Below, piece after piece: positions 1,140 to 32,122 of a stretch of DNA of 39,729 bases; position 1 is the stretch's first letter, and each line of letters begins with the position of its first letter. The DNA comes from Myxococcales bacterium. GTDB taxonomy: Bacteria > Myxococcota_A > UBA9042. The notes under the pieces were generated by a model. The model saw nothing but the letters and a program-made list of their open reading frames with translations. It was not told the DNA's origin and made no database searches. Made by a program: the position numbers and the translations under genes. The stretch lies in assembly GCA_023954815.1 (NCBI GenBank), contig JAGSHB010000036.1, positions 1-39,729 on the forward strand, read 5' to 3'.

Positions 1140-1201
1140 ATGGCGAAGTGCATCGTCAACTGGCTCAAACATGGCGAAGTGCATCGTCAACTGGCTCAAA
1201 C
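1140..1201. repeat. Perfect 31-base tandem duplication
   Basis: Positions 1140-1170 and 1171-1201 are identical and abut directly. The unit starts ATGGCGAAGTGC and ends GGCTCAAAC. Its length is not a multiple of three, so any reading frame across it shifts. This is consistent with a recent slippage or recombination duplication in non-coding or decayed sequence. Confidence 0.9.
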
Positions 1202-14061: not shown

Positions 14062-16217
14062 TTGCGGTCCTCCCGGTCCTTCATCAGGCGGGCGAGTTTG
14101 TCGGCGTTGGGCGGCTCGCCCTTTTCGCGGCTGCGGCGCATCAAGCGGTCGATGCCGACGAGCGGGGGGCACACTTGCTCGTTTTGGTAGTTCGACTCGC
14201 ACTCCATGCAAGATAGACATTCGCGCGGGTCGATCTTGCCTTGTTTGTCGATGGCCTTCGGCTCGCACGTTTTTGTGCAGATCTTGCAGGAGTCACAGGC
14301 GTTTCGGCGGTAGGGACCGCTGAGGCGGAAGCTACCCGGGATAGCCAGACCAGCGCCGAGTGGGCAGACATAGCGGCAGAAGGGGCGCCACCAGAACAGG
14401 GACAGGCCAACGAGCGTCCCCCACCAGGCCACAAAGCCCCAGTGGCGCGTCCAGGGTGCGACGAGAAACGACGTCTTGAAGGGCTCCACCTCGGCCATGC
14501 GCTCGCCGAGCTCTGGGGAGTAGATGAACGTGCCGATGAGCACGACGAGGATGACGTAGCGCAGGTAGCGCAGTCGGCTGTGAACCGCATCCGGCAGCTC
14601 AAACTCGGGCAAACGCAGCAACCGACCCAGCTTGAACAGCAGCTCGGTCGCAGAGCCAAAGGGGCAGGTCCAGCCGCAGAACACCCCACGGCCCCAGATG
14701 AGGGTCACAATGGCGATGCTGATCCACGAGATGAACAGCAGGGGCTCGCTGAGAAAGAGGCTCCAGCGAAAGCCGTGCACCGCGCCGTCGACGAAGGTCA
14801 TCATCTGGGTCACGGACGGCTGCGCTTTGAGCCACACGCCGAGCAAGAGCACGCTCGCCAGCATCACGCTTGTGTGGATGATGCGCAGCCGCTTCATGTC
14901 CGCCACCAGCCAACGCCGACCGATGAACAGCGCCATCACACCCAGCAGGATGGCGAGCACCACGTAGACCCGCGCCCCCTGGTTGCGCCACGCCTGCACG
15001 TAGATCTCTTCGGTCTCGAACACGGGCGCCGCTTCAGGCCGTTTGTACAGCGAATCCGGCAGCCGATGCGTAGCGGAAAACGAGTGAAACTCCCGTGAAT
15101 AGCCGCCCTTTCCGTCGTAGCGGCTTCCCATAAACACAAGATCGAAGGGCTCGCCTGCGTGTAGTTTGCCGCCGCGGGCGAAGAAGACGGCGCCTTCCTT
15201 GAACTCCGGTGCGCCCTTGGCCTCCGTGTGGCCGCCGATGCGGTGGTGGTCGTGATCCTTGAAGATCATCTGGCGCAGGCCCTGCTCCACGCGCACCCGG
15301 TCAAAGATACCGCCGCGCACGTAGCCAGACCCCTTGAACGAGCTCGAGCCGACACCGTAGATGACCAGCAGGTGCTCATCTGCCTTCTTGCGGCCCATCA
15401 GCCAATTGTATTCGTGGTCACCGAGCAGTGAGCGACCGATCTGCGGCGCATCGGCGACCGTAAACCAGAGATTGATGAACTGGTCGTCCGCGGCGGTCGG
15501 TTTGGTGCTCCCCATCTGTTTTTCGCTGACGAAGAGGCGACCGAACACGCCGGCTGTCTCCATCTGCTGCCACGAGAGCACCTTGTCGGTCTTGATGAAC
15601 TCGCCGGTCGCGCCCTTGGCGGCGGCGAGCACACCCACGTCCATCGCGAGCTTGCGGCCGGCAGCGAGCACGGTCTGATTCTGAGCCAGCGCCGTCACCG
15701 TGGCGCCCGAGATCGCGTCGACGGAGATGGCGCCGGGTTTGCTCGATTTGCCGACGACGACGCGCGTAGAGACTGATTTTCCGGCGTACCAGCTCACAAA
15801 CGTCTGCAGGGCTGACTCTGGAATTCCGACCAGCAAGATGGGCTCACTGTGGTGGATGACCTTGGCGCCCGTGAACACCGCCTTGCCGTCAATCCCGAAC
15901 AGCGTCACCAGGGGCTTGCCGCTATAGGCGTCGATGTCGACCACGTCTGTGGATAGTCCGACCCAGCCCAAGGACTTGCCAGCAGCGTCCACCCCCACCT
16001 GATACGACGTGCCCGCGACGGGCTTGAAGCTCACCGCGCCCGGCAGCACTTCTGCGCAGGGCTGCGTCTCGCAATCGAGGGTCTTGGGCGCTGGCTTCGC
16101 GGCGACCGGCTGGGCCATCAGAAGCAGCGCAGTAACCAGGGCCACGACCAAGCCGCGGCCGCCAAAGAGGGGGGAGCCGAGCGGTTGGGAAACGAAACTG
16201 GTGCGCGAACAGGTCAC
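14058..16217 (-). CDS. nosR: NosR membrane flavo-iron-sulfur protein
   Basis: A 719-residue NosR, the electron donor and maturation factor for N2O reductase. A GTG start at 16217 has GGAG five bases upstream. After a signal/anchor (about 20-40), the periplasmic FMN-binding domain contains DAISGATVT; T175 is the predicted site of covalent FMN attachment. Membrane helices follow from about residue 415. The CGWTCPFG and CRYVCPLGAG motifs and two cytosolic [4Fe-4S] binding stretches, CDSCKICTKTCEP and CLSCMECE...VCPP, complete the polyferredoxin part. No ApbE/NosX flavin transferase gene is present in the window, so flavinylation must rely on a gene elsewhere. The gene heads the overlapping nosRDFYL string. 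Confidence 0.95.
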   Translation of the reverse strand: MTCSRTSFVSQPLGSPLFGGRGLVVALVTALLLMAQPVAAKPAPKTLDCETQPCAEVLPGAVSFKPVAGTSYQVGVDAAGKSLGWVGLSTDVVDIDAYSGKPLVTLFGIDGKAVFTGAKVIHHSEPILLVGIPESALQTFVSWYAGKSVSTRVVVGKSSKPGAISVDAISGATVTALAQNQTVLAAGRKLAMDVGVLAAAKGATGEFIKTDKVLSWQQMETAGVFGRLFVSEKQMGSTKPTAADDQFINLWFTVADAPQIGRSLLGDHEYNWLMGRKKADEHLLVIYGVGSSSFKGSGYVRGGIFDRVRVEQGLRQMIFKDHDHHRIGGHTEAKGAPEFKEGAVFFARGGKLHAGEPFDLVFMGSRYDGKGGYSREFHSFSATHRLPDSLYKRPEAAPVFETEEIYVQAWRNQGARVYVVLAILLGVMALFIGRRWLVADMKRLRIIHTSVMLASVLLLGVWLKAQPSVTQMMTFVDGAVHGFRWSLFLSEPLLFISWISIAIVTLIWGRGVFCGWTCPFGSATELLFKLGRLLRLPEFELPDAVHSRLRYLRYVILVVLIGTFIYSPELGERMAEVEPFKTSFLVAPWTRHWGFVAWWGTLVGLSLFWWRPFCRYVCPLGAGLAIPGSFRLSGPYRRNACDSCKICTKTCEPKAIDKQGKIDPRECLSCMECESNYQNEQVCPPLVGIDRLMRRSREKGEPPNADKLARLMKDREDRK

Positions 16218-16248
16218 GTGAACTCCGTTGACCGCCGGGGCGGCGATC

Positions 16249-16296
16249 CAGGACGAAAATAGGTCACTTTCGACCCTCGAACTTGATCTAAGTCAA
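16249..16296 (-). promoter_or_regulatory. nosR promoter with FNR/DNR-type box
   Basis: TTGATCTAAGTCAA (16283-16296, written on the plus strand) matches the TTGAT-N4-GTCAA form known for Anr/DNR regulators and differs by one base from the FNR palindrome. On the minus strand a TATTTT -10 hexamer lies at 16261-16256. A start near 16249 would place the box centre about 41 bases upstream, the class II activation position. The leader would be about 32 bases and includes the GGAG site. The start point is inferred, not measured. Confidence 0.7.
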
Positions 16297-16450
16297 CTCA
16301 GCGGCACCGCTCGCCGCCACGGGTCGCCGGTAACGCAGGCGCCGCCATTCGGGACACAAGACGACAAAGGTGGCGCCCCAAAGGGGGGAGCAGCGGCGAA
16401 AAAGCGGCGGAGCAAGCGTGGATTCAGAGTGGCAACGCCCAGACGACAGC

Positions 16451-16482
16451 GAGAGGGTGACCCGGGAGTGAGCCACCCTCTC
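16451..16482. terminator. 9-bp perfect inverted repeat upstream of nosR
   Basis: GAGAGGGTG (16451-16459) pairs exactly with CACCCTCTC (16474-16482) around a 14-base loop. It lies between nosZ and the nosR promoter. Without a T tract it may be a Rho-assisted terminator, an mRNA stability hairpin or a protein-binding site. Confidence 0.4.
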
Positions 16483-16586
16483 AACATCGTCGCGGGCCAA
16501 CGGCTCAGAGCCGAGAGGGGTGCCCGCTTCGGGAGCGGTCCAACCGATGCCATCTCGGTTGCCGCCAGGGAGATCGCAGGCCATCG

Positions 16587-16610
16587 CCCCGCCGTGGGGG
16601 AGCGGCGGGG
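16587..16610 (-). terminator. GC stem-loop just after nosZ
   Basis: CCCCGCCG (16587-16594) pairs with CGGCGGGG (16603-16610) around an eight-base loop, starting about 15 bases beyond the nosZ stop. Position and strength suggest a 3' end hairpin for the nosZ transcript. No T tract follows. Confidence 0.5.
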
Positions 16611-16625
16611 GATGACCAAGGATGA

Positions 16626-18581
16626 CTACGCCTCGACAATCATGCGGCCGCGCATCTCAAGGTGCAGGGCGTGGCAGAACCAGGGGCAGTAGTACCAGTA
16701 GACACCCGGCTTACCGACCGTGAAGGTCATGGAGTTGGTGTCCTTGGCGTTGACGATGAAGTTCACGTCATGCAGCGACATGCAGAAGCCGTGACTCAAG
16801 TCCTCAACGTTGTCCTGGTTGGTGACGATGATCTGCACCTTCTCGCCGGTCTTCACCTTGAAGTCGCGCATACCGTAGTTCGGCGCCTGGCTGGTCATGT
16901 AGACGCGCACCAGACCGTCCTTGCGGCGAACGACCTTGTTGTCCTTGAGCAGGTCGACGCCGTCTTCCTTGGCCCAGGCCTCGTACATGGCGAAACGCGC
17001 GTCGGTCCGCGGCTGAATCTTCTTCGGGTGAATCAGCGATTTGCTCACCACCACGCAATCGTGGGGCTCGGAAAAGGTCGGTCCATCGTGGGCCAGAACC
17101 ATCTTTTCGCCCGAAATATCAATCAGCTGGTCATTTTCCGGATGCAACAGACCGACGTTCAAGAAGCGATCCTTCGAGAACTTGCACAGGGCGATGAGCC
17201 ACTTGCCGTCAGCGTCCTTGGTCTCCGACATCGACGCGTTGGTGTGCCCCACCTGGTAGTGCACATCGATCTTCTGAACGATTGGATTGGGCGTCTTGCC
17301 GTCCTTGCTCTTGAAGGCAGCGATGGCCTTGTCGATGTTCCACTTGGTGATGACCGAGTCGATGAAGATCGAGGTGTAGGCGTTGCCGCGACCGTCGAAG
17401 GCCGTGTGCAGCGGTCCAAGACCCACCTCTGGCTCAGCGACAACCGAATCGCGCGGCTTGATCTTGCCACCGAAGACGTCGGCCAACTTGTCGATCTGCA
17501 CCACCGTGACGGTCGGCGAGAGCTTGCCCGAGCACATGGCGTACTTGCCGTCGGGGCTGATGTTCACGCCGTGCGGGCTCTTGGGAACCGGCACGCGCTG
17601 CACGAACGCGCTGTTGGCACCACGGGCATCGATGACCGGCACTTTCGAGTCGCCGATGGTCATGGTTTTGCCCGCTTTCACGGCCTTTTCGCACTCAGCG
17701 ATGTTGAACACGTACAGGTGGTCGCGGTCAGCGCCCATCATCTCTTCGAGCGTCACGCCGCCCTCGGAGTTGTAGCAAATCGCGAAGCTGTACTTGCCTT
17801 CGTAATCCGTGGCGCACAGGTCCATGTTGCCTTCAACCATGACCTGCCACTTGACCTCCATGGTCTCGCCGTCGATCGCGGTGTGCAGGGCGCCGTACTT
17901 CTTCGGGTCCGTCATGTTGCTGCCGTCATTTGGCAGCGGCGTGCGGAACTCGGAGTTGCAGAAGACGTAGCCCGTCTTGTGACGCTGCGGGAAGATGCCG
18001 TGCGTACCTTGGCAGTTGGGGATATCGACGATTTTGTCGACTTCCATGGTCTCGCAGTTCACGCGAGCGAGGCGGGCGGAAGCCTTGTCGTTCACGTAGA
18101 CATAGCGACCGTCGTAGGTGCCGTCCTTGTAGCTTGGGTGCACGTGGTGGGTATCACCGCTCATCCGGCCGCCGAGCAGCTTCTTGGAAAAGTCAGTTCC
18201 GCCCCAGCCCGTCGCGGCGTCGCGGTTGAAGACAGGAATGCGCTTGAGCTCACGCATGGACGGCACGCCGATGATCCGGATCTCGCCAGACTGACCACCG
18301 CTCCAGAAGCCGTAGTAGTCGTCGAGCTGGCCGGGCTTTACGTGGGCCGAGAGGCCCTTGTGTGCCGGTGCAGCTTTCGGTGCTGGCGCAGCCTTTGCGG
18401 GCGGCGGCGGCGCAGTCGTTGCAGGCACAGCTGGTGCGGGCTTAGCGGTCTTTTCGGCGCAAGCGGTCGCAGCGACCACGCCACCACCGACCACAGCCAT
18501 CTTGGTGAGGAAAGAGCGGCGATCCTCGGTGGTCTCCGGGACGACGTCGACGTTTGATTTGTTGGGGTGTGACTCAGTCAT
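16626..18581 (-). CDS. nosZ: Nitrous oxide reductase NosZ, predicted Tat lipoprotein
   Basis: A 651-residue N2O reductase, the copper enzyme that reduces N2O to N2. The ATG at 18581 has GGAGG seven bases upstream. The N-terminus carries a twin-arginine motif RRSFLTK (R21, R22), a hydrophobic run and an AATAC lipobox-like end at C41, followed by an Ala/Pro/Lys-rich linker to about residue 75. CuZ-type histidine motifs are present: DTHHVH, LHTAFDG, PHGVN, GHTNASMSE and EPHD. The CuA motif CPWFCHALHLEM supplies C632, C636, H640 and M643, with LSHGFCM upstream. Tat export plus a neighbouring nosR fit clade I N2O reductases; a lipid anchor is unusual for that clade. It is transcribed separately from nosR, under an FNR-type box. 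Confidence 0.97.
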   Translation of the reverse strand: MTESHPNKSNVDVVPETTEDRRSFLTKMAVVGGGVVAATACAEKTAKPAPAVPATTAPPPPAKAAPAPKAAPAHKGLSAHVKPGQLDDYYGFWSGGQSGEIRIIGVPSMRELKRIPVFNRDAATGWGGTDFSKKLLGGRMSGDTHHVHPSYKDGTYDGRYVYVNDKASARLARVNCETMEVDKIVDIPNCQGTHGIFPQRHKTGYVFCNSEFRTPLPNDGSNMTDPKKYGALHTAIDGETMEVKWQVMVEGNMDLCATDYEGKYSFAICYNSEGGVTLEEMMGADRDHLYVFNIAECEKAVKAGKTMTIGDSKVPVIDARGANSAFVQRVPVPKSPHGVNISPDGKYAMCSGKLSPTVTVVQIDKLADVFGGKIKPRDSVVAEPEVGLGPLHTAFDGRGNAYTSIFIDSVITKWNIDKAIAAFKSKDGKTPNPIVQKIDVHYQVGHTNASMSETKDADGKWLIALCKFSKDRFLNVGLLHPENDQLIDISGEKMVLAHDGPTFSEPHDCVVVSKSLIHPKKIQPRTDARFAMYEAWAKEDGVDLLKDNKVVRRKDGLVRVYMTSQAPNYGMRDFKVKTGEKVQIIVTNQDNVEDLSHGFCMSLHDVNFIVNAKDTNSMTFTVGKPGVYWYYCPWFCHALHLEMRGRMIVEA

Positions 18582-18778: not shown

Positions 18779-21700
18779 CTACTGAATCCGCCACCCGGTG
18801 CGCGGGCTGTGCAGGAGCTCATCGGCGGTCAGGGCGCGGCTCATGATACGGACGTCGCTGGTGCGCCCGATAAGCCCCTCGCCTGACACTGTGGAGCCAA
18901 TGAGCAAGGACTGCGCTGCGGTGCCGGTGACGCCATACCCAGAAGCTGAACCCGCACTTTTTCCTTGAAAATACAGGCTCGTCTGCTTGCTACTGGCTTT
19001 GTAGGTCGCTGCCAGGGAGTACGGCTGCTTCGTGGTGACCGTCGGGCCTTTGACACTGGCGCCGCCGCTGACCTGATGGGCCCACTTCTTGCCGTCGATC
19101 CGGATCGCCGGGGAGCCGTTCTTGCGTCCCACCAATCCGACATTGCCCGCGAAGTTCGCGATGGCACCGCGCCACTCTAGGGCGTAGTCCCCGCCGACGA
19201 ACGGTAGCTTCCACGCCCCGAGATCGACCGTGCCGTAGCCCTTGGATTGCATCGCCGAACCCGCAAGCTGACCACTCTGCACCTTGCCGACCGTACGCAT
19301 GGAGGTTTCGTCGACCGCGAGGTACTGCGCTTCGGCATCCTGAAAGCGCCACCAACCGGCGTAGCCCAGACACGGCGACAAGAGGGCATGGCACACCGTC
19401 TTCTTGTCGAGCGCGACCACCTTCGGAAGCTGCGCCTTCGCCTGCGCGTCACCCCAGTGCAGGCTGTAGCGATGGTAGAGATAGCCCTCAAGCGCCGGAT
19501 TCGGCTGGGTCTGGGCGAGAAAGCGAACGCGTGGCAGCCCGATGGTCCGGCGCGCGAGTTCGTTATCGGATAGCGCCGCCTTATGAATCGCGATCTCGTC
19601 GATAGCGCCGTGAAACGCGTAGTCCTTGAAGTTACTGCCGAGGGTGCCGCCGCCGTAGTAGCCGATGCGCGTGATGCGGCTGCCGAATATGGGCAGTGCC
19701 GTGGTCACCTTGTCCTTGCCATTGGCCCAAATCGCCGGGACGCGGACGCCGTCGACAAAGACATGCAGCTGACCGCTCTCTCGGCGTAGGGCGGTGTGGT
19801 GCCAGCCGCCGTCCAGATGAACCGAGAACGACGCCGCATAGTCCTGTGTGCCGTCGGACACCAGATGCCTGAGCCTGAACGCATGCTCGCCTTGCAGCCG
19901 GTCGAGAATCAAAGCCAACCCCTTCTTCCCTGCGGACTTGGAATTGCGGGTGTCAAGCAGGTAGGCGCGCGCGTGCTTGGCGGACTCAATACGGAACCAA
20001 GCCTCGGCGGTGAAGTCCCCCAGCACAACTTCGGGAGCCGTGACCTTTGCGTAGCTCGTCGAGCCATCGAACGCCGCCGCCTTGTCAGCACTATGCAGCC
20101 CACCAGCGACAGTCTTCGTGCCAATAAACGCCGCAGTCTTCTTCCCTGAAACCTCGTCCTTACCGTCGCCGCTGAGGCGCCAGTAGGCGACGGCGTCTTT
20201 CAGGTCGGCAGCACCCATCGGGCGACGCCCCACGACCTCGCTATGGGTGCGGTGCCCAATACTGTCCCAAGTCGCCCGCTCGGTGACCTGCACATCTCGC
20301 AGATCAGGCTGCACGCCGGGGGTCAACGTGGTGCCATAGGGGCGCCGCGAATCGACGTAGAGCTTGATTTCCCGGGCTGAGAGCGCGCGACCGACAATCA
20401 AGGCGTCGTCGATGTGCACGGAGCACTTCGGGAAGTTGTCCTCCCCAAGCCGCAGGTATTTAAGCCCGACGACACTAGCCGGAACGGTCGTGTGGCCGTC
20501 GTCCGACTTGGTCAAGACACCGTCACCATTGAGGTAGACTCCAATCGCCTGATTCGCGCGAATGACGAGGGCGTAGTGCTGCCAGCCCGTTCGAGTGTCG
20601 ACCAGGTCGTCTTCCGATCGAATACGAACCATCTCCGTCTTGAGCCCTTTGAAGTCACCGTTGTGCGGGCCGTAGGAGATGCGGATCGCCCCGTCGTCAT
20701 CAACCCGCATCTTCATGTGGCCGTGAACTGTTGGGCTGACCACCGCGCCAGACGCGTTGACCAGGTCACAGGAGACCTCTCCGTTGGGCTGCACGTTTGC
20801 CCACAGCATGATGGTCGCGTCGCGCAATTTGAAAGGCGCGAGCGTAGACGACGAGTTGGTCTTGTCGTGGCTCGCATCCATCGCGCTGCCAGCGCCCAAA
20901 ATGGAAGGCACCGAGCCACCCTCCGCGTCCTTGAGCGTGCGGTTGTTACCGCTGCTGTCGGCATTGTTGCCGTCAAATCGCCAGTGCCCAACCAAGGTCG
21001 GATCGGCCATGCCGTTGACGAGTGGCACCTCGACCGGCTCGTTGCTCCGACGAACATCGCTGCAGCCTGCCGCCCCACCCCGCGTCGCCATCCGCAGCGC
21101 TAGTTTCTTGCTAGGCGAACCAGCCAGCCCACCACAGGCGCTGACCGCTCCATCGGGATTCCAAACGGTCGGGCAAGAGTCCGCCTTGCCCACCAAGCCG
21201 TCATGATCGAGGTCGAGGGCGTCTTTGGCCGGCGTGCATCCCGACACAGGCGCGTGCTGACAGCCTTCAGACGGCTTGCAGCTGTCGGTCGTACAAGCCT
21301 CCCCGTCGTCGCAGTAGCGATAGCCGGGAGTCAGGCATTGCTCTGCTGACGAGCAGGTCAGATGCCCCCAAGCGTCAGAGACCATCACGCGACCGCGCAG
21401 CTCAGGCTTCTTGTCGCCATCGATGTCGTGATGGTCACTCGCGCCGAAGAAGTAGCGGTTGCCCTGCGCCGTGAGGCGGACCGAGTACGACATCGGCGAG
21501 CGCTTTTCGACGGTCTTGTGCCAGGTCACCTTGCCGATCGTATTGAGCCGCGCCAGGCCTGCGGCTTGTAGGTACTTGCCATTGGGAGAGCCGCTGACAA
21601 TGGGCTTCGATTTACCGAGGACGCTCATGGTGCCGTTGCTGTGCATCACCAGATCCGTCAGCTCGGTGAACTGCGCCCCTGGGATGCGGGAGTAGAGCTG

Positions 21701-24700
21701 CGCGCCCGCTGCGCTCAGGCCGAGAACATAGGGTTTGAGCGCATAGTTCGATGTGGTCGTCCCGACGCCCCAGATCTCTCCTTTCGGCGAGATCCCGACG
21801 CCGCGAAGCCGTTGATTTCCCGGTCCACCGTAGTTCTTCTTCCACAGCAGCTGACCGGTGGCGCTTAGCTTCAACACGAACGCGTCGGTCTTGTCGCCGT
21901 CGCTATCGGTGCTTCCTGCCGCCACGATGGTCTTCGCCACGGCGGCGACCCCAAAGCACACATCGACGTCATTGCCGCCAAATCGCTTGTTCCAGACCGT
22001 CACCGGCTTGGCACCGGCGGTCCGTACCACCCAACAGTCGGTCTTGCCGTTGCTGTCGGTGGAGGTCTCGCCCACGGCGACTAGCCCTTTTTCATAGCGC
22101 GTCGCAAAGAGAAATCGGTCCTGTTTGGAGCCGCCAAAGAGCGTGCGGTCGACGAGCTTGCCGTCGCTGCCAACCCGCCAAATGGCCCCCTCAATACTGC
22201 TGCCTTGCGCGTTGCCGCCCACCGCAACGACCGCTGCCTTACCATCATCGAGTGGCCCGCCGTCCGTCGCGTCAAAAACAGCTTCTGCGCTGCAGTCGGC
22301 GTACTGTTTGGACGACTCCCGGTAGGTCCATAACGTCTTTCCGTTGCTGTCGAGCCCCATGATACGGGGCGACCACTTGCCACCGATGACCCGGTCCTGT
22401 CCCACGGCTGCATGGCCCCCGCCAGTCATCGGGATCACTTGGTGTACGAGGGATTCCTGCGCGCCGGCGTAGGCCGCCACCTTGTCGAACACCGCACAGT
22501 TGACCACCGGCTCGCACTTGCTGCCGATGCACTCACCGGTGCCATCTCCAAGGTTGCAGTCGGCGCCATCGGTGGTTGTTTTTGTGCAATCGCCAGTCTT
22601 CGGGTCGCAGGCATCGGTGGTGCACGAGTTGCCGTCGTCACAAGACTTCGGCTTGCCGGGAACGCACTTCCCCTTGGAGCACGCGTCACCGTCTGTACAC
22701 GGCTTGCCATCGCTGCACGGCGCATCTGTGGGCGTGTGCGCGCAGCCCTTGACCTTGTCGCAGCTGTCCTTGGTGCACGGGTTGCTGTCATCGCACGTGT
22801 TGACCGTTCCGGGCGCACATGTGCCGCTCTTGCAGACGTCGCCCACGGTACAGGCGTTGTTGTCGCTACAGTTGATGGTCAGCGGTGTTGTGACGCAGCC
22901 TTTGGTCTTGTCGCAGGCGTCTCCGGTGCATGGGTTTTTGTCGTCACAGACAATCGCCACGCCACCGACGCACTTCTTGGCGCTGCAGGTCGCATCTTTC
23001 GTACAGGCGTCGCCGTCACTGCACGGTCCACTATCGACAGCGACATGCGTACAATCGGTGGCTTTGCCGCACGCATCCTTGGTGCACGCGTTGTCGTCGT
23101 CGCAAGACTTCGCTGCACCGCCCTGACACAGGCCGTTCTGGCACTTTGTCTCGATGAAACAAGGGTTTCCGTCGTCACATGACTTGCCGATCATGGCCGC
23201 GACGGGGCTCAGTCCGCACTTGCCGGTCTTGTCGTTGCACACGCTTTTTTGGCAGGCCGTGTCGTCCACCGTCTTGCACTGCACCACGGTGTTGGGGTTG
23301 GGCGCGCACTTGAACGGCATCGTCTTTTTGTCACACCACAGCACGCCATTGCAGACCTTGCCGTCGCCCAATTTGTCTTCGCAGCTATACCCGGGCTTGT
23401 GCGGGCCGCACTGGCAAATATCGTTGCCCGGCAAGCACTTGCCATTGGCGCCGCATCGGTCAGCCACGGTGCAGGGCTGCGCGTCGTCGCACGCAGAGTT
23501 GACATTCGCGGGCGTCAGCGCGCACTTGCCGGTCTTGGGCACGCACACATTGTGACTGCACGGCCCGTCGTCGACCGTCTTGCAGACGACCTTCGTCTTC
23601 GGATTGACGATGCACTGGTTGGTCGTCTTGTCGCAGACCAGGGTGCCATTGCACAGGTCACCATCTTCGAACTTGCCGCAGTCAGCGTCCTGCGTGCACT
23701 TGCACTGCGGCGCGGTCGTGGCTGGCTTGCAGACGCCTGTTTCGCAGGCATCGCCCACGGTACAGGCGTTGCCGTCGTCGCACGTCGCGCCATCCTTCGC
23801 CGACAACAGCGCACACTTCCCTGTCTTGGGTTGGCAAGTCATGGTCTTGCAGGCGGTGTTGTCCACCGTCTGGCAGGTCACCACGGTCGCCGGATTGAGC
23901 TGACACTTCTTCAGGGCCTGATTGCAGAACAGGGTGCCATTGCAGAGGTTGCCGTCGTCTTTGGCGGCGCAGTCCGAGTCGGTCGCGCAGCTGCACGTAT
24001 TGGTCTTCGATGCACACTTGCCCTTGCCGCAGGTCTCGTCGATGGTGCACGGGTTGCCATCATCACAAGGTTTGCCGTCGCCGATGGTGACCATCGAACA
24101 CGTGCCGGTCTTCTTGTCACAGAGATTGGCCTCGCAGGCGGTATCATCAACGGATTTGCAGGTGATGACCGTCGCCGGGTTGACAGCACACGCGCCCGTG
24201 ACCTTGTTGCAGAACGGCGTGCCGTTGCACACGTCACCATCGTCAGGGCACTTGTTCTTGAAACCGGCTTCGCACGCCCCAGCCTTGCACGTGTCACCAA
24301 CCACGCACTTATCTCCGTCATCGCAAGGCGTGCCGTCCTTCAGCGCGGTCATTGCGCACTTGCCCGTGGCGGGCGCGCAGGTGTTCTTTCTGCAAGCTGT
24401 GTCCTTGGAATTGGAGCAACTGATGACGGTCGCTGGGTTGACGATGCACTTGCCGCTGCTCTTTTCGCAGAACAACGTGCCCGTGCACGCGTTGCCGTCC
24501 TCGTGTTTTTCGCAGTCCTTCGACGTCTCGCACTGACAGGTCGCCTCCCCGGCGGTGCACGTTCCGTCCTTGCAAACGTCGCCTTCGGTACACGCGTCAC
24601 CGTCAGAGCACGCCTTATCATCGGCCATCTTCTTGGACACACACTTGCCGCTCTCTGGGACACAGGTCTCGGTCGTACACGGATTTCCGTCGTCCGCGCA

Positions 24701-25072
24701 GGTTTTTGGCGAGGAATTGCACGTACCGAGCTTGCAGACTCCCGGTGCACACGCGTCGCCGCAAACCAACCCGTCGGGCTGACCGCTCTCCTTGCAGGCG
24801 CCGTCGACGCACTTCCAAGCCCGGCACGCAGCGAGCTCGCCAGCGCAGTCAGTCGCGACAACGCACTCCGATTTCTGAGCATCATCTGATGCAGTCACAT
24901 CAACTGCCGAGACATCTCCTGCAGTCACGTCGACTACCGAAGCATCGGCGGCCGACACATCTCCCGATTTTCCCCTGTCGGCCACTGGGTCGTCGACGCA
25001 GCTAACGAGCAGCCCCGTCAACAGGAGCGCTGCGCAAAAGCCTGTTCGCCAGACGCTGATTGCCAACCGCAT
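18779..25072 (-). CDS. Giant Cys-rich repeat / propeller / LamG lipoprotein
   Basis: A 2,097-residue exported protein of unknown function. The start at 25072 (MRLAISVWRT) has GGGAG five bases upstream, better placed than for the ATG seven codons earlier. The lipobox LLVSC gives C25. A short Asp/Val-rich spacer leads to a cysteine-rich region (about 65-850). This contains five copies of a roughly 75-residue unit recognisable by CNGTLFC-like and NPxTVVxC motifs, then shorter units of the DDxNPCTxDxC type. Residues about 855-1260 look like a beta-propeller (recurrent VAVGETSTDSNG-like and GGPGNQRLRG-like blades). A Ca-binding-like DLDHDGLVGKADSCP segment follows near 1290. Three LamG/concanavalin-like domains start near 1357 (GHWRFDGN), 1627 (AYWRLSGDG) and 1900 (GWWRFQD). 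The domains suggest a disulphide-braced stalk presenting glycan- or protein-binding heads. It is 50 bases downstream of the vWA gene, probably in one operon. Confidence 0.88.
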   Translation of the reverse strand: MRLAISVWRTGFCAALLLTGLLVSCVDDPVADRGKSGDVSAADASVVDVTAGDVSAVDVTASDDAQKSECVVATDCAGELAACRAWKCVDGACKESGQPDGLVCGDACAPGVCKLGTCNSSPKTCADDGNPCTTETCVPESGKCVSKKMADDKACSDGDACTEGDVCKDGTCTAGEATCQCETSKDCEKHEDGNACTGTLFCEKSSGKCIVNPATVISCSNSKDTACRKNTCAPATGKCAMTALKDGTPCDDGDKCVVGDTCKAGACEAGFKNKCPDDGDVCNGTPFCNKVTGACAVNPATVITCKSVDDTACEANLCDKKTGTCSMVTIGDGKPCDDGNPCTIDETCGKGKCASKTNTCSCATDSDCAAKDDGNLCNGTLFCNQALKKCQLNPATVVTCQTVDNTACKTMTCQPKTGKCALLSAKDGATCDDGNACTVGDACETGVCKPATTAPQCKCTQDADCGKFEDGDLCNGTLVCDKTTNQCIVNPKTKVVCKTVDDGPCSHNVCVPKTGKCALTPANVNSACDDAQPCTVADRCGANGKCLPGNDICQCGPHKPGYSCEDKLGDGKVCNGVLWCDKKTMPFKCAPNPNTVVQCKTVDDTACQKSVCNDKTGKCGLSPVAAMIGKSCDDGNPCFIETKCQNGLCQGGAAKSCDDDNACTKDACGKATDCTHVAVDSGPCSDGDACTKDATCSAKKCVGGVAIVCDDKNPCTGDACDKTKGCVTTPLTINCSDNNACTVGDVCKSGTCAPGTVNTCDDSNPCTKDSCDKVKGCAHTPTDAPCSDGKPCTDGDACSKGKCVPGKPKSCDDGNSCTTDACDPKTGDCTKTTTDGADCNLGDGTGECIGSKCEPVVNCAVFDKVAAYAGAQESLVHQVIPMTGGGHAAVGQDRVIGGKWSPRIMGLDSNGKTLWTYRESSKQYADCSAEAVFDATDGGPLDDGKAAVVAVGGNAQGSSIEGAIWRVGSDGKLVDRTLFGGSKQDRFLFATRYEKGLVAVGETSTDSNGKTDCWVVRTAGAKPVTVWNKRFGGNDVDVCFGVAAVAKTIVAAGSTDSDGDKTDAFVLKLSATGQLLWKKNYGGPGNQRLRGVGISPKGEIWGVGTTTSNYALKPYVLGLSAAGAQLYSRIPGAQFTELTDLVMHSNGTMSVLGKSKPIVSGSPNGKYLQAAGLARLNTIGKVTWHKTVEKRSPMSYSVRLTAQGNRYFFGASDHHDIDGDKKPELRGRVMVSDAWGHLTCSSAEQCLTPGYRYCDDGEACTTDSCKPSEGCQHAPVSGCTPAKDALDLDHDGLVGKADSCPTVWNPDGAVSACGGLAGSPSKKLALRMATRGGAAGCSDVRRSNEPVEVPLVNGMADPTLVGHWRFDGNNADSSGNNRTLKDAEGGSVPSILGAGSAMDASHDKTNSSSTLAPFKLRDATIMLWANVQPNGEVSCDLVNASGAVVSPTVHGHMKMRVDDDGAIRISYGPHNGDFKGLKTEMVRIRSEDDLVDTRTGWQHYALVIRANQAIGVYLNGDGVLTKSDDGHTTVPASVVGLKYLRLGEDNFPKCSVHIDDALIVGRALSAREIKLYVDSRRPYGTTLTPGVQPDLRDVQVTERATWDSIGHRTHSEVVGRRPMGAADLKDAVAYWRLSGDGKDEVSGKKTAAFIGTKTVAGGLHSADKAAAFDGSTSYAKVTAPEVVLGDFTAEAWFRIESAKHARAYLLDTRNSKSAGKKGLALILDRLQGEHAFRLRHLVSDGTQDYAASFSVHLDGGWHHTALRRESGQLHVFVDGVRVPAIWANGKDKVTTALPIFGSRITRIGYYGGGTLGSNFKDYAFHGAIDEIAIHKAALSDNELARRTIGLPRVRFLAQTQPNPALEGYLYHRYSLHWGDAQAKAQLPKVVALDKKTVCHALLSPCLGYAGWWRFQDAEAQYLAVDETSMRTVGKVQSGQLAGSAMQSKGYGTVDLGAWKLPFVGGDYALEWRGAIANFAGNVGLVGRKNGSPAIRIDGKKWAHQVSGGASVKGPTVTTKQPYSLAATYKASSKQTSLYFQGKSAGSASGYGVTGTAAQSLLIGSTVSGEGLIGRTSDVRIMSRALTADELLHSPRTGWRIQ

Positions 25073-25122
25073 CTCCACTCCCTGCCAGTTCATCTCGGAC
25101 CCTGTTGGCTCAGTTTGCGAAA

Positions 25123-27156
25123 TCAGCAGCCAAACTGAAAGTGGATCTTCTTGTCTTTCATCGCGTCGCAGGTCTCAGGGCACAGGATCGCAGCCGTCGG
25201 CTTGGCGGCGTTGTCGAAGTGCCACCCGACCTGACCCTTGACGCACTTGTCGGCGCTATCGACCCGTGTAATCGGCTTTTTAGCGCCGCCGCCGCTGCTC
25301 CAGCTCACCGCGATCTTCGTCGGGTCGACCGGTTTGCCGTCCTTGCTCTTGGGCAGGCTGTAGCTGCACTGCACTTTCACGGTCTTGACCACGTTGTTGC
25401 CGATCGCCTTGAACACGTTGGTCCAGTCGGCAGAGCAAATCTGCGCAACCTCACCGCCAGTCTGCTTGCTCAAATCGAGATAGACACCGCCCCAGCCCGC
25501 GCCGCCAAAGCAAGGGAGCAGCGCCAAGGTCGGGTGATACGAAGCGATGCTGTGGAAGGTGAAGCCATCGGGCCAACTCGGATTTTGTAGCTGTGCCACC
25601 TTCGAAGTGAACCAGGAGGCATCTTTGTCCGACTTGTCGTCGCTGACGACAACGATGTGCTTCGCCGCTCCAGCCCGTAGGAACCCTTGAAACTTGGCGT
25701 AGTTGTAGATGAACACTTTGAGAGCGTCCGTCGAGTCCACCTTGACCTTCACATGCCGATATTGCGCAGTGTCCGCGCAACCTTTGCCGCCCAGCGGAGG
25801 TGGCACACACAGGCCAAAGCCGTCTGCCAGCAAGATGACGTGGTAGTCGATGTTCTTGCCGCCGATAATCTGAGCGAAGAGGTTCAGGTTCGCCTGAACC
25901 GCCTTGGCTTCGTCCTTCATCGAGCCGGAGGTGTCGATGGCGACGATGATGTCTACCTGCCCACCACTCGCCTCCGCGACGATGTCCTCGCTCGACTCGC
26001 TCGCCTTGCAGGGTTTGCCGGTGACCTCAAGCGGCACGTTGACCAGCGTCATGCCCGGCGCGTCGGAGCTAATCTGCAGCCCGGCAACCGCGGTGGAGGT
26101 CTTCGCCACCTCTTGGTCCAGCGTCAGCGTCACGTCGATGAGCTTGCTCTCACCAGGCTCGAGCTTGAATGGGCCCGGCTCGCTGATTTTGACCGTCTTG
26201 ACCTTGCTCAGCAGGGAGAGCGCGATCTCTTTGACGTGCAGCGCGGCGAGGCCGTTGGAGTAGATCTTCAGCTGCTTGGTGACCGTGTCGCCCTTGTCCA
26301 TGGTGCCAAAGAGCAACTTCGGCGGAACGACCTGAATCTTCGGGCCGATCTCCTTGGCGTAAACATCCACCTGCGCCTTGCGGTCGCCGTCGTACTGCAC
26401 GAGCAGCGCGGTCGCGTCTGCGCCGCCAGCGGTCGGATTGAAGGTGATCTCTACTTCGGCGGAGGCGCTCGGCTCGATGTCGAAGGGTGCTTTGGGCGCC
26501 TTGGTGATGGTAAAGTCCGCGCTACCGTTGGGATCGAGCTCCAACTTGTCGACGGTCAGCTTGTTGCTGCCGTTGTTGTACAGCTGCACCGACTTCTTCG
26601 AACTCTGTGTGGACGGCACAGCGCCAAAGTCGACCGGATCAGGGACCGCCTTCAGATTGCCGCTGCCCTTCTTCACCACGATCGGCAGGACCGCCTCCTG
26701 CATCGACAGCAGGGTCGCATTGTTGGTCACCGTGAGCTTGGCCGTCTTCGCGCCCTCAGCCTTTGGGGCGTAGCGCACCTTCAATTTGACTGTCCCACCC
26801 GGCTGCAGGGTGAGCGGCGAAAAGTCGATAAGCGAAAATTCACCCGAACTCTGGGTGAGTTTTGCCGTTTTCAGCTCGAGATCGCCCCGATTTCCCACGT
26901 GACGCACCGTGACTTCGAGGGTGGTCGTCGAACCCGCAGCGCTGTCCACGAACACCAGCTTGTCGGGCTCAAACGCCAGTCGAATGTCGTCTTCTAGACA
27001 GAACGCGCCGGTACAACCCGCGCCGCCAGCCGTGTTGGGATCGGTGCCAGAGCCGCCCTCGTCGGAGCTGGAACAGGCGAGCAGTGTGAGACTCAGGAAC
27101 AAAGGGATAACGAAACGGGCGACGGTTCCGCGCAGCAAAGGCGCGTAATGCAACAT
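25123..27156 (-). CDS. Lipoprotein with Ig-like (ASH-type) repeats and vWA domain
   Basis: A 677-residue predicted lipoprotein; the signal peptide ends LLAC, giving C28. GGAG lies five bases before the ATG. After a Gly/Ser/Thr spacer come three Ig-like domains of the ASH/choice-of-anchor-D type (about 55-160, 165-270 and 275-385), seen from repeated patterns such as DFGAVPSTQSSKKSVQLYN and LLFGTMDKGDTVTKQLKIY. A von Willebrand A domain begins near residue 398 with the metal-ion site DTSGSM, and VVSDDKSD lies further in. The C-terminus (about 600-677) is Cys-rich and ends in Cys. vWA and ASH domains commonly mediate surface protein contacts. The gene lies between the fibrinogen-like gene (149 bases upstream) and the giant lipoprotein (50 bases downstream). 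Confidence 0.88.
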   Translation of the reverse strand: MLHYAPLLRGTVARFVIPLFLSLTLLACSSSDEGGSGTDPNTAGGAGCTGAFCLEDDIRLAFEPDKLVFVDSAAGSTTTLEVTVRHVGNRGDLELKTAKLTQSSGEFSLIDFSPLTLQPGGTVKLKVRYAPKAEGAKTAKLTVTNNATLLSMQEAVLPIVVKKGSGNLKAVPDPVDFGAVPSTQSSKKSVQLYNNGSNKLTVDKLELDPNGSADFTITKAPKAPFDIEPSASAEVEITFNPTAGGADATALLVQYDGDRKAQVDVYAKEIGPKIQVVPPKLLFGTMDKGDTVTKQLKIYSNGLAALHVKEIALSLLSKVKTVKISEPGPFKLEPGESKLIDVTLTLDQEVAKTSTAVAGLQISSDAPGMTLVNVPLEVTGKPCKASESSEDIVAEASGGQVDIIVAIDTSGSMKDEAKAVQANLNLFAQIIGGKNIDYHVILLADGFGLCVPPPLGGKGCADTAQYRHVKVKVDSTDALKVFIYNYAKFQGFLRAGAAKHIVVVSDDKSDKDASWFTSKVAQLQNPSWPDGFTFHSIASYHPTLALLPCFGGAGWGGVYLDLSKQTGGEVAQICSADWTNVFKAIGNNVVKTVKVQCSYSLPKSKDGKPVDPTKIAVSWSSGGGAKKPITRVDSADKCVKGQVGWHFDNAAKPTAAILCPETCDAMKDKKIHFQFGC

Positions 27157-27305
27157 GACAACTCCTACATTGAACGCGGCAGTGTGCCAGTCAACGTCAC
27201 AAATTGCATGGGTTCTTTCTGAACGTTTGGCAGGTCAACTATCGACCGCGCCACAGCCCGAGGGCCGTCGACTGAGATAGGGGGCGCCTACCTCAGCCGA
27301 CGTGA

Positions 27306-30113
27306 TCAACGCAGCCAGATCGCCACTGATCCATGCTGGTCCCACTTGTTGGGCAACCAGTGGTAGTGGTGCGAGTAGTACGGCTGACCGGTTTTGATGG
27401 ACGTGATGGTCTTGCCGCCGACTTTGCACGTCTTGGTGTAGAACCGCGAGCCGTTCTTACCGCGCCCATCGCCGCTATGCACCGAGATGAACAACGGGCC
27501 AACCGTCATGCCCGACGAACCGATGCAGTTGCTGTCATTGGTCGCGCCATAGCCGGTCGGGTAACTATCCGACCACGTCGCGCCGAGGCTGTGCTTGAAG
27601 GTGTACCGCGTCTTGCCCGTCTGATTGGTGTCACCCTTGTAGACCTTGAGCTTGACCGGGACGCATGGGCCGCGACCTGTCGAACCGGTGCTGGTGTAGC
27701 CGCCGTGCTGGCTATGCGGGGCGAAGTTGACCGTCTTCGGATCCGGGATGTTGAACGCGTAGATGGAGCTGTAGGCCTTCATGTTGCCGGTGATGTTGCG
27801 CGTGTTGTGGTGGGCAAACGCAATCTCACTGGAGTTCTGAGCAATTTCAACAGCGCGAATCGCCGCCGGGAAGCCACGACCCTCGGGATCCCAGCCCTGC
27901 CCTGCCACGCTGCCGCCGCACTGCATATCGAATAGCGAGTGCCAGTCGGGACGGTGAGGCGAGTAGTTCACCAGGGTCCAGCCACCGCCATCGGTCGTCA
28001 TGTCGCAGTAGGTCTCCAGCGGCGGATTGCCGCCGACGCCATCGGGATCGATGTAGTGCAGACCATCGTGCGCGGCCGGGTACATCTGCTTGATTTGCTT
28101 ACACGTCTTCGGTGCGGTCGTGGGCTTGAACGTACCCGCGCCCCGCAGCGGTCCGCGGTACTCCACCTGCAGACGGCTGTGCGCGCCAGCGTACGGACCA
28201 TTCGAGTTATGACCATGATTCCACGAGTGATAGTTGTAGTACGACGCACCACTTGTGTACTGGTCGACGCGCATCCAATCGCCCTTCTTAAAGGGCCAGA
28301 CCAAGACGGCGTGGGTGTCTTTCCACGTGCCATGGCCGTGATTGTGGCCGTGGTGGATGTACTGCCAACCGTTCTTGATGACCTTGATGTGCTGCCAGTT
28401 CGCAGAGTGATTGATGGCGAAGTAGTTGATCTTGTAGTAGCCGGCTTTCTTGATGTAAATGTAGCCGTTTTGCCGCACATCTAGGTAGTTACGCGCGGTG
28501 TTAAAGTCGCTGCCGTCCAGACAGTAGGTCGCCCAGTTGCTGTTCTTGCGTGCAGAACTCCGGCAGCCACCGGAGAACAGAATTGGCTGGGCCCGCGCCG
28601 CGTACCATTCGTAGCTGACGCTGCCGTTGTTGGCGTCGTTGGCTTGGCAGACCTGCAAACCTTCCATGGGGTCATTGCGGAACACGCCGCGGTGGGCAGC
28701 ATCGCAGACCTTCTCCGACTGAAAGCGCATACCGCCGCCGATCTCAACTGGCCCACCAGGCACGCCGTGACCGTTGTCTTTGCCCCACACCTGGCCATTC
28801 ATGTAGGCGTGGCCATTCACACCGACCTTCTGGTTGGACAGGGTCTGAATCTTGATGTTCCAAGATGCGATCCAGCCGTCGCGCTTCTTGACCGGGTCGC
28901 AGTACTTGGAATTGCCGGTCGCCTGGGGCACGCAGTAGCCGGTGTCCAGCACCTTCAAATTCCAAAGTCCCTTCGCGTTCTTGTTCGTCCAATAACCGAT
29001 GTCGCCCGACTTGGGCTTCGCCGTGCTGGAGTAGGTCTTCTTTAGAATCTTGGCGTCTTTTCCGCCGCAGGGATCGCACAGCACCCAGCCCACTTTTTTG
29101 TCATTGGGGGGGAGCACCGTAATGGCGACTTTGCTCAGGTCCGTGTTCTCGACGTGGATGTTGACCTCGAACTTCTGAGCCTTGCCAATGTCGGGAAAGT
29201 CCAAGTTGCTAATGGCCTGCGTGCCCTGATTGTCCGGGATCGGAATCATCTTTCCGCTTGCCCAGATGGTGTCGGTGAACTGGTTGGCGAGCAGGTTGTT
29301 GCTGATCTCGTTGAGCCCGTCACCGGGAAGCGCGTTCGGGTCCATCGACTTGACGCACTTCAGTGAGCCATCGGCGTTGATGCCCTTGACCACGAACCCA
29401 GCGGTCTTGCACTCGCCCGAAGGGGTCTTGATACCCGTGAGCTTGGAGCCGTCACCGACAAATGCCGTTGCCGTCACCGTGCTTGCAGCCACGCCGCCAG
29501 TGAAGGTGCCGTTCTTGGCCTTGATGCTGAATGCGCCGAGGTTCACGTTGCCGTTGAACTTCATTTCGCTGACTGAGACGCAGCCTGTGCAAGCGAGATC
29601 CTTGGCCGGACCGCCTTTCGTTGCTGAGCCCGCGTAGTTGAATCCAACCGACGCAGATGACACGCCACCCTTCGCAATTTGAGCGCCAGACACGCAGCCA
29701 CTGCAGCTGAGCGACGCTGCGACGTGCGCATAACTGACCGCGTTGAGTTGGCGACGTGGCAATTCCGGATCGGCGCCGATTTTGATGCTCACCCAAGCCT
29801 TCGCCAACCCGGCAAGCGTCTTGGGGCTGATGGGCTTGGTCAAACCGAGACGGTAGCTGAACCGCCCCCCCTTCACCGTCACCTTGACCGGGCCCTCACT
29901 CCAGGCCGGGCTGCCCCCGGATTGTCCCGGAAAGATGCCGAACGTCACGTCGTAGGAGCCGTCTGCTGCGGCCCCACCACCGGCACTGGTGAGCACGGCT
30001 TCAATCGCCGTTGTGCCTGGAACCGCAGCTGTGGCCGAAATCGCGGGCAGGCTTAGGGCCAAGAAAAGCAGGGCGGCATACCCAGAAGCATACTTTGGAA
30101 AAGAGCAAGTCAC
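27306..30113 (-). CDS. Exported P-domain / C1q-like / fibrinogen-like protein
   Basis: A 935-residue secreted protein of unknown function. A GTG start at 30113 is chosen because GGAGG lies five bases upstream and the next residues (MTCSFPKYASGYAALLFLAL) form a signal peptide; the frame opens at 30140 without such a site. An N-terminal beta-rich region (about 35-225) has a LNAVSYAHVAAS segment often seen in bacterial tail-fibre-like or fibrinogen-domain proteins. Residues about 285-420 resemble the P/Homo B domain (LDFPDIGKAQKFEV to GLWNLKV). Residues about 515-650 look like a C1q/TNF-type jelly roll. Residues about 668-935 hold a fibrinogen-like domain with LETYCDMTTDGGGWTLV. A histidine cluster (HHGHNHGHG, near 590) suggests metal binding. 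Recognition of glycans or surfaces is the best guess. Confidence 0.85.
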   Translation of the reverse strand: MTCSFPKYASGYAALLFLALSLPAISATAAVPGTTAIEAVLTSAGGGAAADGSYDVTFGIFPGQSGGSPAWSEGPVKVTVKGGRFSYRLGLTKPISPKTLAGLAKAWVSIKIGADPELPRRQLNAVSYAHVAASLSCSGCVSGAQIAKGGVSSASVGFNYAGSATKGGPAKDLACTGCVSVSEMKFNGNVNLGAFSIKAKNGTFTGGVAASTVTATAFVGDGSKLTGIKTPSGECKTAGFVVKGINADGSLKCVKSMDPNALPGDGLNEISNNLLANQFTDTIWASGKMIPIPDNQGTQAISNLDFPDIGKAQKFEVNIHVENTDLSKVAITVLPPNDKKVGWVLCDPCGGKDAKILKKTYSSTAKPKSGDIGYWTNKNAKGLWNLKVLDTGYCVPQATGNSKYCDPVKKRDGWIASWNIKIQTLSNQKVGVNGHAYMNGQVWGKDNGHGVPGGPVEIGGGMRFQSEKVCDAAHRGVFRNDPMEGLQVCQANDANNGSVSYEWYAARAQPILFSGGCRSSARKNSNWATYCLDGSDFNTARNYLDVRQNGYIYIKKAGYYKINYFAINHSANWQHIKVIKNGWQYIHHGHNHGHGTWKDTHAVLVWPFKKGDWMRVDQYTSGASYYNYHSWNHGHNSNGPYAGAHSRLQVEYRGPLRGAGTFKPTTAPKTCKQIKQMYPAAHDGLHYIDPDGVGGNPPLETYCDMTTDGGGWTLVNYSPHRPDWHSLFDMQCGGSVAGQGWDPEGRGFPAAIRAVEIAQNSSEIAFAHHNTRNITGNMKAYSSIYAFNIPDPKTVNFAPHSQHGGYTSTGSTGRGPCVPVKLKVYKGDTNQTGKTRYTFKHSLGATWSDSYPTGYGATNDSNCIGSSGMTVGPLFISVHSGDGRGKNGSRFYTKTCKVGGKTITSIKTGQPYYSHHYHWLPNKWDQHGSVAIWLR

Positions 30114-30490
30114 GGTGTCCTCCACGACGCCAGCGGCCACTTTGAGTGGCGCTCCGGTCAGGTATCTGAGCTACGTCTTCGTCTGTGAGAGCGTACCGCC
30201 AAACCGGGGCGTCCCGCAACAGTTCTGACGTAAGGACGGATGCCTAATAGCTGGTCATTGTTTCGATTATGCAGAGGCGGCGCATCTAGTTTGACTCCGT
30301 ACCATCATGCTAATAAGGACACTAGCAACGCGTTCTGGGCGCCCAAACATGTGCAAATGTGCAGCTCATCTTTGCGTTGCGGCGCCAAAGACGATGACGA
30401 GGTGACGAGCGATCGAGCGCCAGAACGACATCGAATCGCGCCGTGGTTCGATGGACTGGCCCGTTAACCCGCAGCTCGGGAAGATGGACC
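30114..30490. other. Intergenic region upstream of the fibrinogen-like gene
   Basis: About 380 bases, locally AT-richer (30240-30370) than the rest of the window. No gene is supported; the one plus-strand frame (30240-30467) has no ribosome binding site or motif. A promoter for the fibrinogen-like gene is expected here, but no strong -35/-10 pair was found. A short perfect hairpin lies at 30136-30150. Confidence 0.4.
30136..30150 (-). other. Hairpin in the predicted leader of the fibrinogen-like gene
   Basis: GCCACT (30136-30141) and AGTGGC (30145-30150) pair perfectly around a three-base loop, about 22 bases upstream of the GTG start and close to its GGAGG site. It could affect mRNA stability or translation. 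With only six pairs, chance is not excluded. Confidence 0.3.
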
Positions 30491-31972
30491 TCAAAACGTC
30501 GATGTCAGACGTTCGGTGACGCGAAAGTCCTGCCATCGCACGCGACGGGTCTGCCACCAGAAGTCGAACGTGTACCCCGGCCAGAGGATGGGGTTGTTCC
30601 CTGCATCATCGAGGTACCAGCTCCGGCAGCCGCTCCCCCAAATCGCCGAGGCCAAGCGCGATTGGATATCCCGGTTGAAAGCAGCCTCCGCCGCTTCCGT
30701 CACTTCGACGACGTGCCCATCGCCTGCCAGGGCGCGCTCTACGCACTCACCGACCATTCGGACCATGGACTCGATCATGAAGATCATGGAGTTGTGCCCT
30801 AGGCCGGTGTTGGGGCCTGTCATCATGAAGAAATTCGGAAATCCAGGCACCGCCGCGCCCAAGTACGCATGCGGCAGGTCAGCCCAGGCATCTGCCAACG
30901 TCTGCCCCTCGCGGCCGACGACGTTCATAGGCGCGAGCAAGTTGGTCAGATCGAAGCCAGTCGCCCAAATGAGCGCGTCGACCTCGCGGCGTTGCCCGGA
31001 GGCAGAGATGACAGTGCGCCCCTCGAGTTCGCTCACGGCCTCGTCGATGACCTCGACATCTGGTCTGGCCAGCGCTGGGTAGTAGTCGTCTGACAGCAAA
31101 ATCCGCTTGCAACCGGGCCGATAGCTGGGCGTCACCTTCTCGGCGAGCTGTGGATCACGAATCCCGCGGCGGATGTGACGGCGACCCAACAAGGCCACCA
31201 ATCGCATAAACATGGGCGCTGTGACGAAGGCGAACGCCTGCATCTCCATCCGCACATACAGGCGCGCCCGGTGCAGGCGCCGGCGCCAGTCGGACGTCAA
31301 AAAGCGCTGCTTTTCCTTGGCTGTATACGGCCGGTCACGTCGCTGCATGACCCACGCCGGCGTCCGTTGGTAGACGATGAGCTGCTTTGTGCGCTCCGCC
31401 AAGGCCGGCACCACTTGAATCGCAGAGGCGCCCGTGCCCACCACAGCGACGGTCTTGCCTGTGAGGTCGACGTCATCTCGCCATTGCGCGGTGTGCCACG
31501 TGGGCGGTTGGAAGGTCTCTCGCCCGGGGAGATCAGGGCTTGTCGGGATGCGTAGCGCCCCCGTCGCCGTCACCACGACTCGTGCCCAGAAGACATCGCC
31601 TTTGCGCGTCGTGAGTCGCCACTGGGAAGTGTCCGCCTGCCAACGTGCCTCTGTGACCTCGCAGCCCAAGCGGATGCGATCCCGCAGGCCGAGTTGGTCT
31701 GTCACCCTGGCGGTGTAGGCCTCGATTTCAGGCTGCGCGCTGTAGACGTGAGACCAGTCCGCGTTGGGGGCAAATGAGAACGAATACAGGTGGGAAGGCA
31801 CGTCACAGGCGCAGCCCGGGTAGCGATTGACCTGCCACGTTCCGCCGGACGCTGGGCTTGCGTCCAAGAGCAGAAAGTCCCGTTTTCCAGCTTTTTGGAG
31901 ACGATGGGCGATCGCGATGCCGCTGAAACCGGTACCGATGATGGCAACTTCTGTGCGCGACTCGACCATCAT
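30491..31972 (-). CDS. Baeyer-Villiger-type flavin monooxygenase
   Basis: A 493-residue flavoprotein monooxygenase using FAD and NADPH. The FAD Rossmann motif is near the N-terminus (IIGTGFSGIAIA), followed by GGTWQVNRYPG, typical of class B monooxygenases. A second Rossmann motif for NADPH (VVGTGASAIQVV) lies near residue 180. The Baeyer-Villiger fingerprint region reads F154-x-P156-x3-H160-x3-W164, so the usual Gly is Pro. WATGFD near residue 340 is also conserved. It may oxidise ketones or aldehydes to esters; the substrate is unknown. Adjacent GTG/ATG/ATG codons (31975, 31972, 31969) make the exact start uncertain. It is divergent from the penicillin-acylase-family gene, with about 150 bases between starts. 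Confidence 0.9.
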   Translation of the reverse strand: MMVESRTEVAIIGTGFSGIAIAHRLQKAGKRDFLLLDASPASGGTWQVNRYPGCACDVPSHLYSFSFAPNADWSHVYSAQPEIEAYTARVTDQLGLRDRIRLGCEVTEARWQADTSQWRLTTRKGDVFWARVVVTATGALRIPTSPDLPGRETFQPPTWHTAQWRDDVDLTGKTVAVVGTGASAIQVVPALAERTKQLIVYQRTPAWVMQRRDRPYTAKEKQRFLTSDWRRRLHRARLYVRMEMQAFAFVTAPMFMRLVALLGRRHIRRGIRDPQLAEKVTPSYRPGCKRILLSDDYYPALARPDVEVIDEAVSELEGRTVISASGQRREVDALIWATGFDLTNLLAPMNVVGREGQTLADAWADLPHAYLGAAVPGFPNFFMMTGPNTGLGHNSMIFMIESMVRMVGECVERALAGDGHVVEVTEAAEAAFNRDIQSRLASAIWGSGCRSWYLDDAGNNPILWPGYTFDFWWQTRRVRWQDFRVTERLTSTF

Positions 31973-32122
31973 CACCGCCTCAGTAGCTCCGTCTGACTGC
32001 GTCCCGAAACAAGTGCACTCATGCGAACACGAGAGCGGCGCAGTCTGCTAGGGTCGCATTCCCATGGCCAAGTTCTGGTCGTATCCATACGTTTGCCGTG
32101 GAGTCCCTCCTTGGAGCCTAGC

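Follow-up and report, generated by a model that had tools for sequence, protein, structure and literature searches.

The mosaic adhesive trimer (MAT) superfamily of Bdellovibrio bacteriovorus consists of trimeric, β-rich fibres on the surface of a predator, with about 20 paralogues per genome, and swapping of their tips has been proposed (PMC10769870). According to the accessible part of that paper, a conserved β-rich domain of ~130 amino acids lies immediately behind the signal peptide of MATs, and 13 of 21 members carry the Peptidase_S74 chaperone/protease, which is thus a feature of a subset. The interchangeable tips of Kil/Tad pili (PMC12075869) and the PilY1 adhesins (PMC13190605) are minor pilins or pilus-tip proteins with conserved clusters and few copies. 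How generalist bacteria recognize many different cell surfaces remains an open question. Here we report the analysis of contig JAGSHB010000036.1 (39,729 nucleotides (nt), hereafter the window) of the Myxococcales bacterium assembly GCA_023954815.1 (GTDB Myxococcota_A; UBA9042). We propose, with a probability of about 0.7, that one of its proteins, P0003, belongs to a large mosaic family in uncultured Myxococcota whose members are secreted, fibre-like and probably trimeric surface proteins. Our search of the open-access literature found no description of a P0003-type family in Myxococcota.

The window encodes three large exported proteins, consecutively and on the same strand:

18779-25093, minus strand: open frame of P0001, 2104 amino acids; an ATG at 25072 gives the 2097 residues of the first-pass annotation
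18779..25072, minus strand: P0001, Cys-rich/LamG lipoprotein, a neighbour outside the mosaic family (profile searches and gene-order comparison)
25123..27156, minus strand: P0002, 677-residue lipoprotein with three Ig-like domains and a vWA-like region, a neighbour outside the mosaic family
27306-30140, minus strand: open frame of P0003, 944 amino acids; a GTG at 30113, the end coordinate of the first-pass annotation, gives 935
27306..30113, minus strand: P0003, mosaic-family member with at least 18 paralogues in its own genome

The first-pass annotation had described these genes as three exported proteins, two of them lipidated, separated by gaps of 149 and 50 bp. The gaps follow from the coordinates above, and inspection by eye revealed lipoboxes in P0001 (GLLVSC) and P0002 (LTLLAC) and a signal peptide without a lipobox in P0003. 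Its domain assignments held for the Cys-rich repeats (Dicty_CTDC, seven copies, 3.1e-20) and LamG domains (Laminin_G_3, three copies, 1.8e-35; both Pfam) of P0001, and the propeller claimed for the same protein found a weak match only, to an SBBP lipoprotein model (0.0056). Similarly, the Ig-like domains of P0002 were recovered (choice_anch_D, three copies, 1.3e-31), and its vWA domain stayed below the Pfam cut-off (0.069; 0.002 in orthologues), with an intact DTSGS in the vWA-like region. As a lipoprotein with a vWA-like region and a DxSxS motif, P0002 resembles the MIDAS-family adhesin Bd0875 (PMC11003981), but it differs in bearing three Ig-like domains, and its match to the MIDAS-family model NF052240 is partial (1.1e-5; 24.7 bits against a cut-off of 700 bits). 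The Cys-rich Dicty-repeat stretches of P0001 (window 18779-25072) are extremely abundant in its own genome, with 396 matches. P0001-like Dicty-repeat proteins lie near members of the P0003 family at 23 loci, a raw count (L074, L075, L077-L081, L099-L101, L104-L106, L149, L156 and others).

The same annotation had proposed a single multi-component apparatus for surface recognition as the product of the three genes, and had named beforehand the lack of a conserved gene order in relatives as one refuting outcome. This order is not kept in two congeneric genomes, G002 and G003. In G002, separate contigs carry the relatives of P0001 (48% identity across almost its full extent), of P0002 (70%) and of the P0003 tip (81%), and no further window genes were found in the 17–19 kb around these genes. 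In G003, the P0002 orthologue is divergent from, and directly adjoins, an orthologue of the acylase gene of the window (75%). The monooxygenase-like gene (window 30491-31975), which in the window separates P0003 from the acylase gene, is missing from this G003 locus, and so is P0003. The trio as a conserved unit is thus ruled out by gene order in G002 and G003, and, because that order is not kept, the trio as one system is not supported. The shared direction, the short gaps and the export of all three products, along with possible co-transcription in this genome, would suit a single apparatus; however, given the lost gene order and the occurrence of the P0003 constant half in at least 18 dispersed paralogues that mostly come without orthologues of P0001 or P0002, we regard a single apparatus as very unlikely. 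The analysis confirms the three genes as described, and not that they form a shared system; the natural kin of P0003 are its dispersed paralogues rather than P0001 or P0002. A promoter and terminator scan of the trio region gave nothing above shuffled sequence, and anti-phage defence models gave no match. Beside the trio, NosR-like and NosZ-like genes (window 14058-18581; by eye) are likely to serve nitrous oxide reduction, and a 31-bp unit is perfectly duplicated in tandem at window 1139-1201.

P0003 is divided into a constant half and a C-terminal tail carrying two tips:

30027..30113, minus strand: signal peptide, AxA type, no lipobox (by eye; hydrophobic stretch)
29754..30020, minus strand: N-domain, residues ~41-129, constant half (AlphaFold pLDDT mostly 79-94; alignment A1)
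29283..29753, minus strand: shaft or linker, residues ~130-286, constant half, with a GDGSKLTG motif (alignment of paralogues)
28839..29282, minus strand: P-domain, residues ~287-434, end of the constant half (Pfam in relatives; Foldseek)
28149..28721, minus strand: first tip, C1q/TNF-like head, residues ~474-664 (AlphaFold, Foldseek)
27309..28118, minus strand: second tip, fibrinogen/intelectin-like, residues ~675-944 (sequence match, motif part only)

The N-domain is modelled by AlphaFold as a β-rich domain of ~90 amino acids right behind the signal peptide, and its matches to PDB entries 3sik and 3sz6 (E 0.0025-0.011) are too weak to use. The shaft is conserved among congeneric paralogues and mostly of low confidence in the monomer model. 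Pfam recognizes the P-domain (PF01483) in 14 of the 25 relatives aligned and gave no such match in P0003 itself, whose model of this region matches Kex2, furin and an Aeromonas protease (Foldseek). Viral structure matches include phage proteins with a P-domain as well as phage tail fibres. Residues 451-674 are predicted to adopt a C1q/TNF jelly-roll fold (pLDDT 67, moderate), matching C1QL1, Cbln1, C1q heads and TNF ligands (Foldseek). For this region, neither Pfam, searched with P0003, nor a solved-structure search with the C1q alignment gave a C1q match. In sequence searches, the end domain matches GGGWT_bact (3.8e-20) and intelectin-1 (4.3e-8) and contains the YCDM..GGGW motif; both matches cover its first ~60 residues, and the remaining ~210 do not align with intelectin/ficolin-type lectins. 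The first-pass reading of P0003 as a P-domain, C1q-like and fibrinogen-like protein thus stands, on relatives and fold, on fold, and on the sequence of the motif part, respectively, as does its view that these are animal-like recognition domains on exported, plausibly adhesive proteins. At 490 amino acids, the P0003 tail is the longest in the family, since two tips follow one another in it. A copy in G002 that is broken in the assembly likewise shows the end of a C1q domain followed by a fibrinogen domain: at L089:9036-10198, the N-domain (60%) and the tip (81%) of this P0003 relative lie in different frames, with the middle missing.

Judged by sequence, P0003 belongs to a large mosaic family of secreted fibre-like proteins. 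Its own genome (G000) contains at least 18 open reading frames carrying the constant half (about residues 20-450), and three further, more distant ones that mainly share the N-domain. Among the 16 own-genome members with measurable tails, the constant half matches in 120 of 120 pairs (median identity 48%) and the tail in 14 of 120. We collected 115 members from 19 Myxococcota genomes; the signal peptide, N-domain, shaft and P-domain are common to the family, and the tips at the end are unrelated. Genomes of the GTDB family of the window mostly have 18–40 constant-half matches, with 4–10 in two genera, and full-length matches in a phylum-wide sample are concentrated in this GTDB family, those elsewhere being mostly partial and weaker. 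A search of a genome collection with alignment A2 found only metagenome-assembled genomes (MAGs), and those named beyond 'bacterium' or 'Proteobacteria' are Myxococcales. First-look candidates for the constant half number ~84–118 in G007 and G011, suggesting bigger repertoires there.

The tips are highly diverse. A Pfam scan of 69 non-redundant tails detected COLFI and fibrinogen domains in 16 and 12 members, CTHRC1_C (best 3.1e-43) and TLDc (5.6e-29), and also BclA_C, C1q, Xlink, RCC1, phage collar and DUF4215 domains. The TLDc and CTHRC1_C domains are known mainly from eukaryotes; examples as bacterial fibre tips are found at L015:2317-3201 and L111:2675-3184. Clustering of the tails of 108 of the 115 members, those with usable tails and constant halves, gave 23 tip clusters, 9 of which are singletons, numbers that depend on the BLAST thresholds, and some tips are of no recognized type. 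Since proprotein convertases are the best-known carriers of P-domains, the family might consist of secreted proteases or other enzymes, with tips that merely help substrate binding. This is highly improbable, as P0003 matches no peptidase family and the 69 scanned tails gave a single weak peptidase match (Peptidase_U32, 0.0022). No more credible is an origin of the genes as remnants or parts of tail fibres of phages or phage-like contractile injection systems: the phage collar domain among the tips and weak structural matches to phage tail fibres point that way, but the members are dispersed single genes with Sec signal peptides and no recurrent phage neighbours, and the P0003 constant half has no PHROG match.

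The mosaic pattern of constant halves and tips is evident in the family tree as well as at the DNA level. Tip type changes at least 39 times on the constant-half tree, where a single origin of every shared type would need 13 changes and shuffled labels average 60; the tree is supported solely by SH-aLRT, with 34 of 105 branches open. Three own-genome members, G000_09, G000_69 and G000_102, have constant halves that are 87–93% identical in protein, with unrelated tips. G000_09 and G000_69 lie next to each other on a single contig. Their DNA is 84–96% identical across the constant half, starting just behind the signal peptide and stopping sharply at the tip, roughly where the P-domain ends, with flanks near background; G000_102 shows the same DNA pattern against both (64–94%). 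The reverse pattern is seen between G000_09 and G002_18 (tips 86%, constant halves 71%). Furthermore, G000_102 and G003_83 have matching neighbours (60–85%) and tips 70% identical, and the constant half of G000_102 is 67% identical to that of G003_83 versus 87–88% to own-genome paralogues. Genus-wide, the best constant-half partner lies in the same genome for 22 of 51 members and the best tip partner for 8 of 50 (Fisher p=0.004, counting as independent members that are not). Of the 31 members whose tip has an orthologue in another genome, 17 keep the matching constant half, indicating that exchange is common, not universal. These sequence patterns fit tip exchange, gene conversion of constant halves, or both, which are not separable in every case. 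As the related genomes are draft assemblies and most of them MAGs, a constant half could in some cases have been joined to its tip by chimeric assembly; this concern is lessened for G000_09 and G000_69, because they share one contig and differ by 4–16% in constant-half DNA windows.

In the proposed mechanism, the constant half (Sec signal, N-domain, shaft and P-domain) would anchor and present the C-terminal tip, probably at the cell surface, and the tip would bind to other cells or to particles through their glycans or proteins; glycans are the probable ligands of C1q and intelectin-like tips. P0003 carries two tips one behind the other, first the C1q/TNF head and then the fibrinogen/intelectin-like domain. 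The family's repertoire would diversify by duplication, by tip exchange and by recombination among paralogues that partly homogenizes the constant halves. Surface display, trimers and ligands are what we infer for the P0003 family by analogy with MATs. Prey recognition is plausible. Tentatively, dozens of fibre genes per genome, with a recombining constant cassette and swapped animal-type tips, may give an uncultured Myxococcota family a rapidly evolving means of recognizing the surfaces of prey or competitors, and with equal reserve this set of genes might be likened, as a bacterial equivalent, to variable receptor repertoires. The family could instead serve self-aggregation, kin recognition or attachment to matrix or particles. 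The likeness of the tips to animal matrix and glycan-binding modules favours such a role, as does the fact that predation is not known in these uncultured organisms; however, tip diversity and exchange are better explained by many different targets than by a single constant partner, and self-recognition alone does not obviously need at least 20 different folds, so that we consider this role somewhat unlikely. Under the reading that we prefer, a mosaic family of surface fibres, the tips are discrete modules suited to expression and glycan arrays.

A comparison with the described systems places the P0003 family closest to MATs in design. Both have a constant N-terminal part, diversified tips including TNF/C1q-like ones, and many paralogues (PMC10769870 for MATs). 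Immediately behind the signal peptide, where MATs have their β-rich domain of ~130 amino acids, P0003 has a predicted β-rich N-domain of ~90. Peptidase_S74 (PF13884) had no match in the whole draft genome of the window at E<=1e-3. The P-domain in the constant half of the P0003 family and its fibrinogen, CTHRC1_C, TLDc and RCC1 tips have no mention in the accessible text on MATs, from which the word 'fibrinogen' is absent. Moreover, tip exchange is deduced here from DNA and trees, whereas for MATs it was argued from structure (PMC10769870). We suggest that the P0003 family works like MATs, and do not claim that it belongs to their superfamily. With the interchangeable Kil/Tad tips (PMC12075869) and PilY1 adhesins (PMC13190605), the family shares a constant part joined to a variable recognition domain, in Myxococcota, but it differs from both in being far more numerous and in having no recurrent neighbour system. 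Collectively, what is new with respect to these systems is a MAT-like design in another phylum, in which tip exchange and partial homogenization of the constant halves are visible at the sequence level, and tips that resemble animal domains (C1q, fibrinogen/intelectin, CTHRC1 and TLDc).
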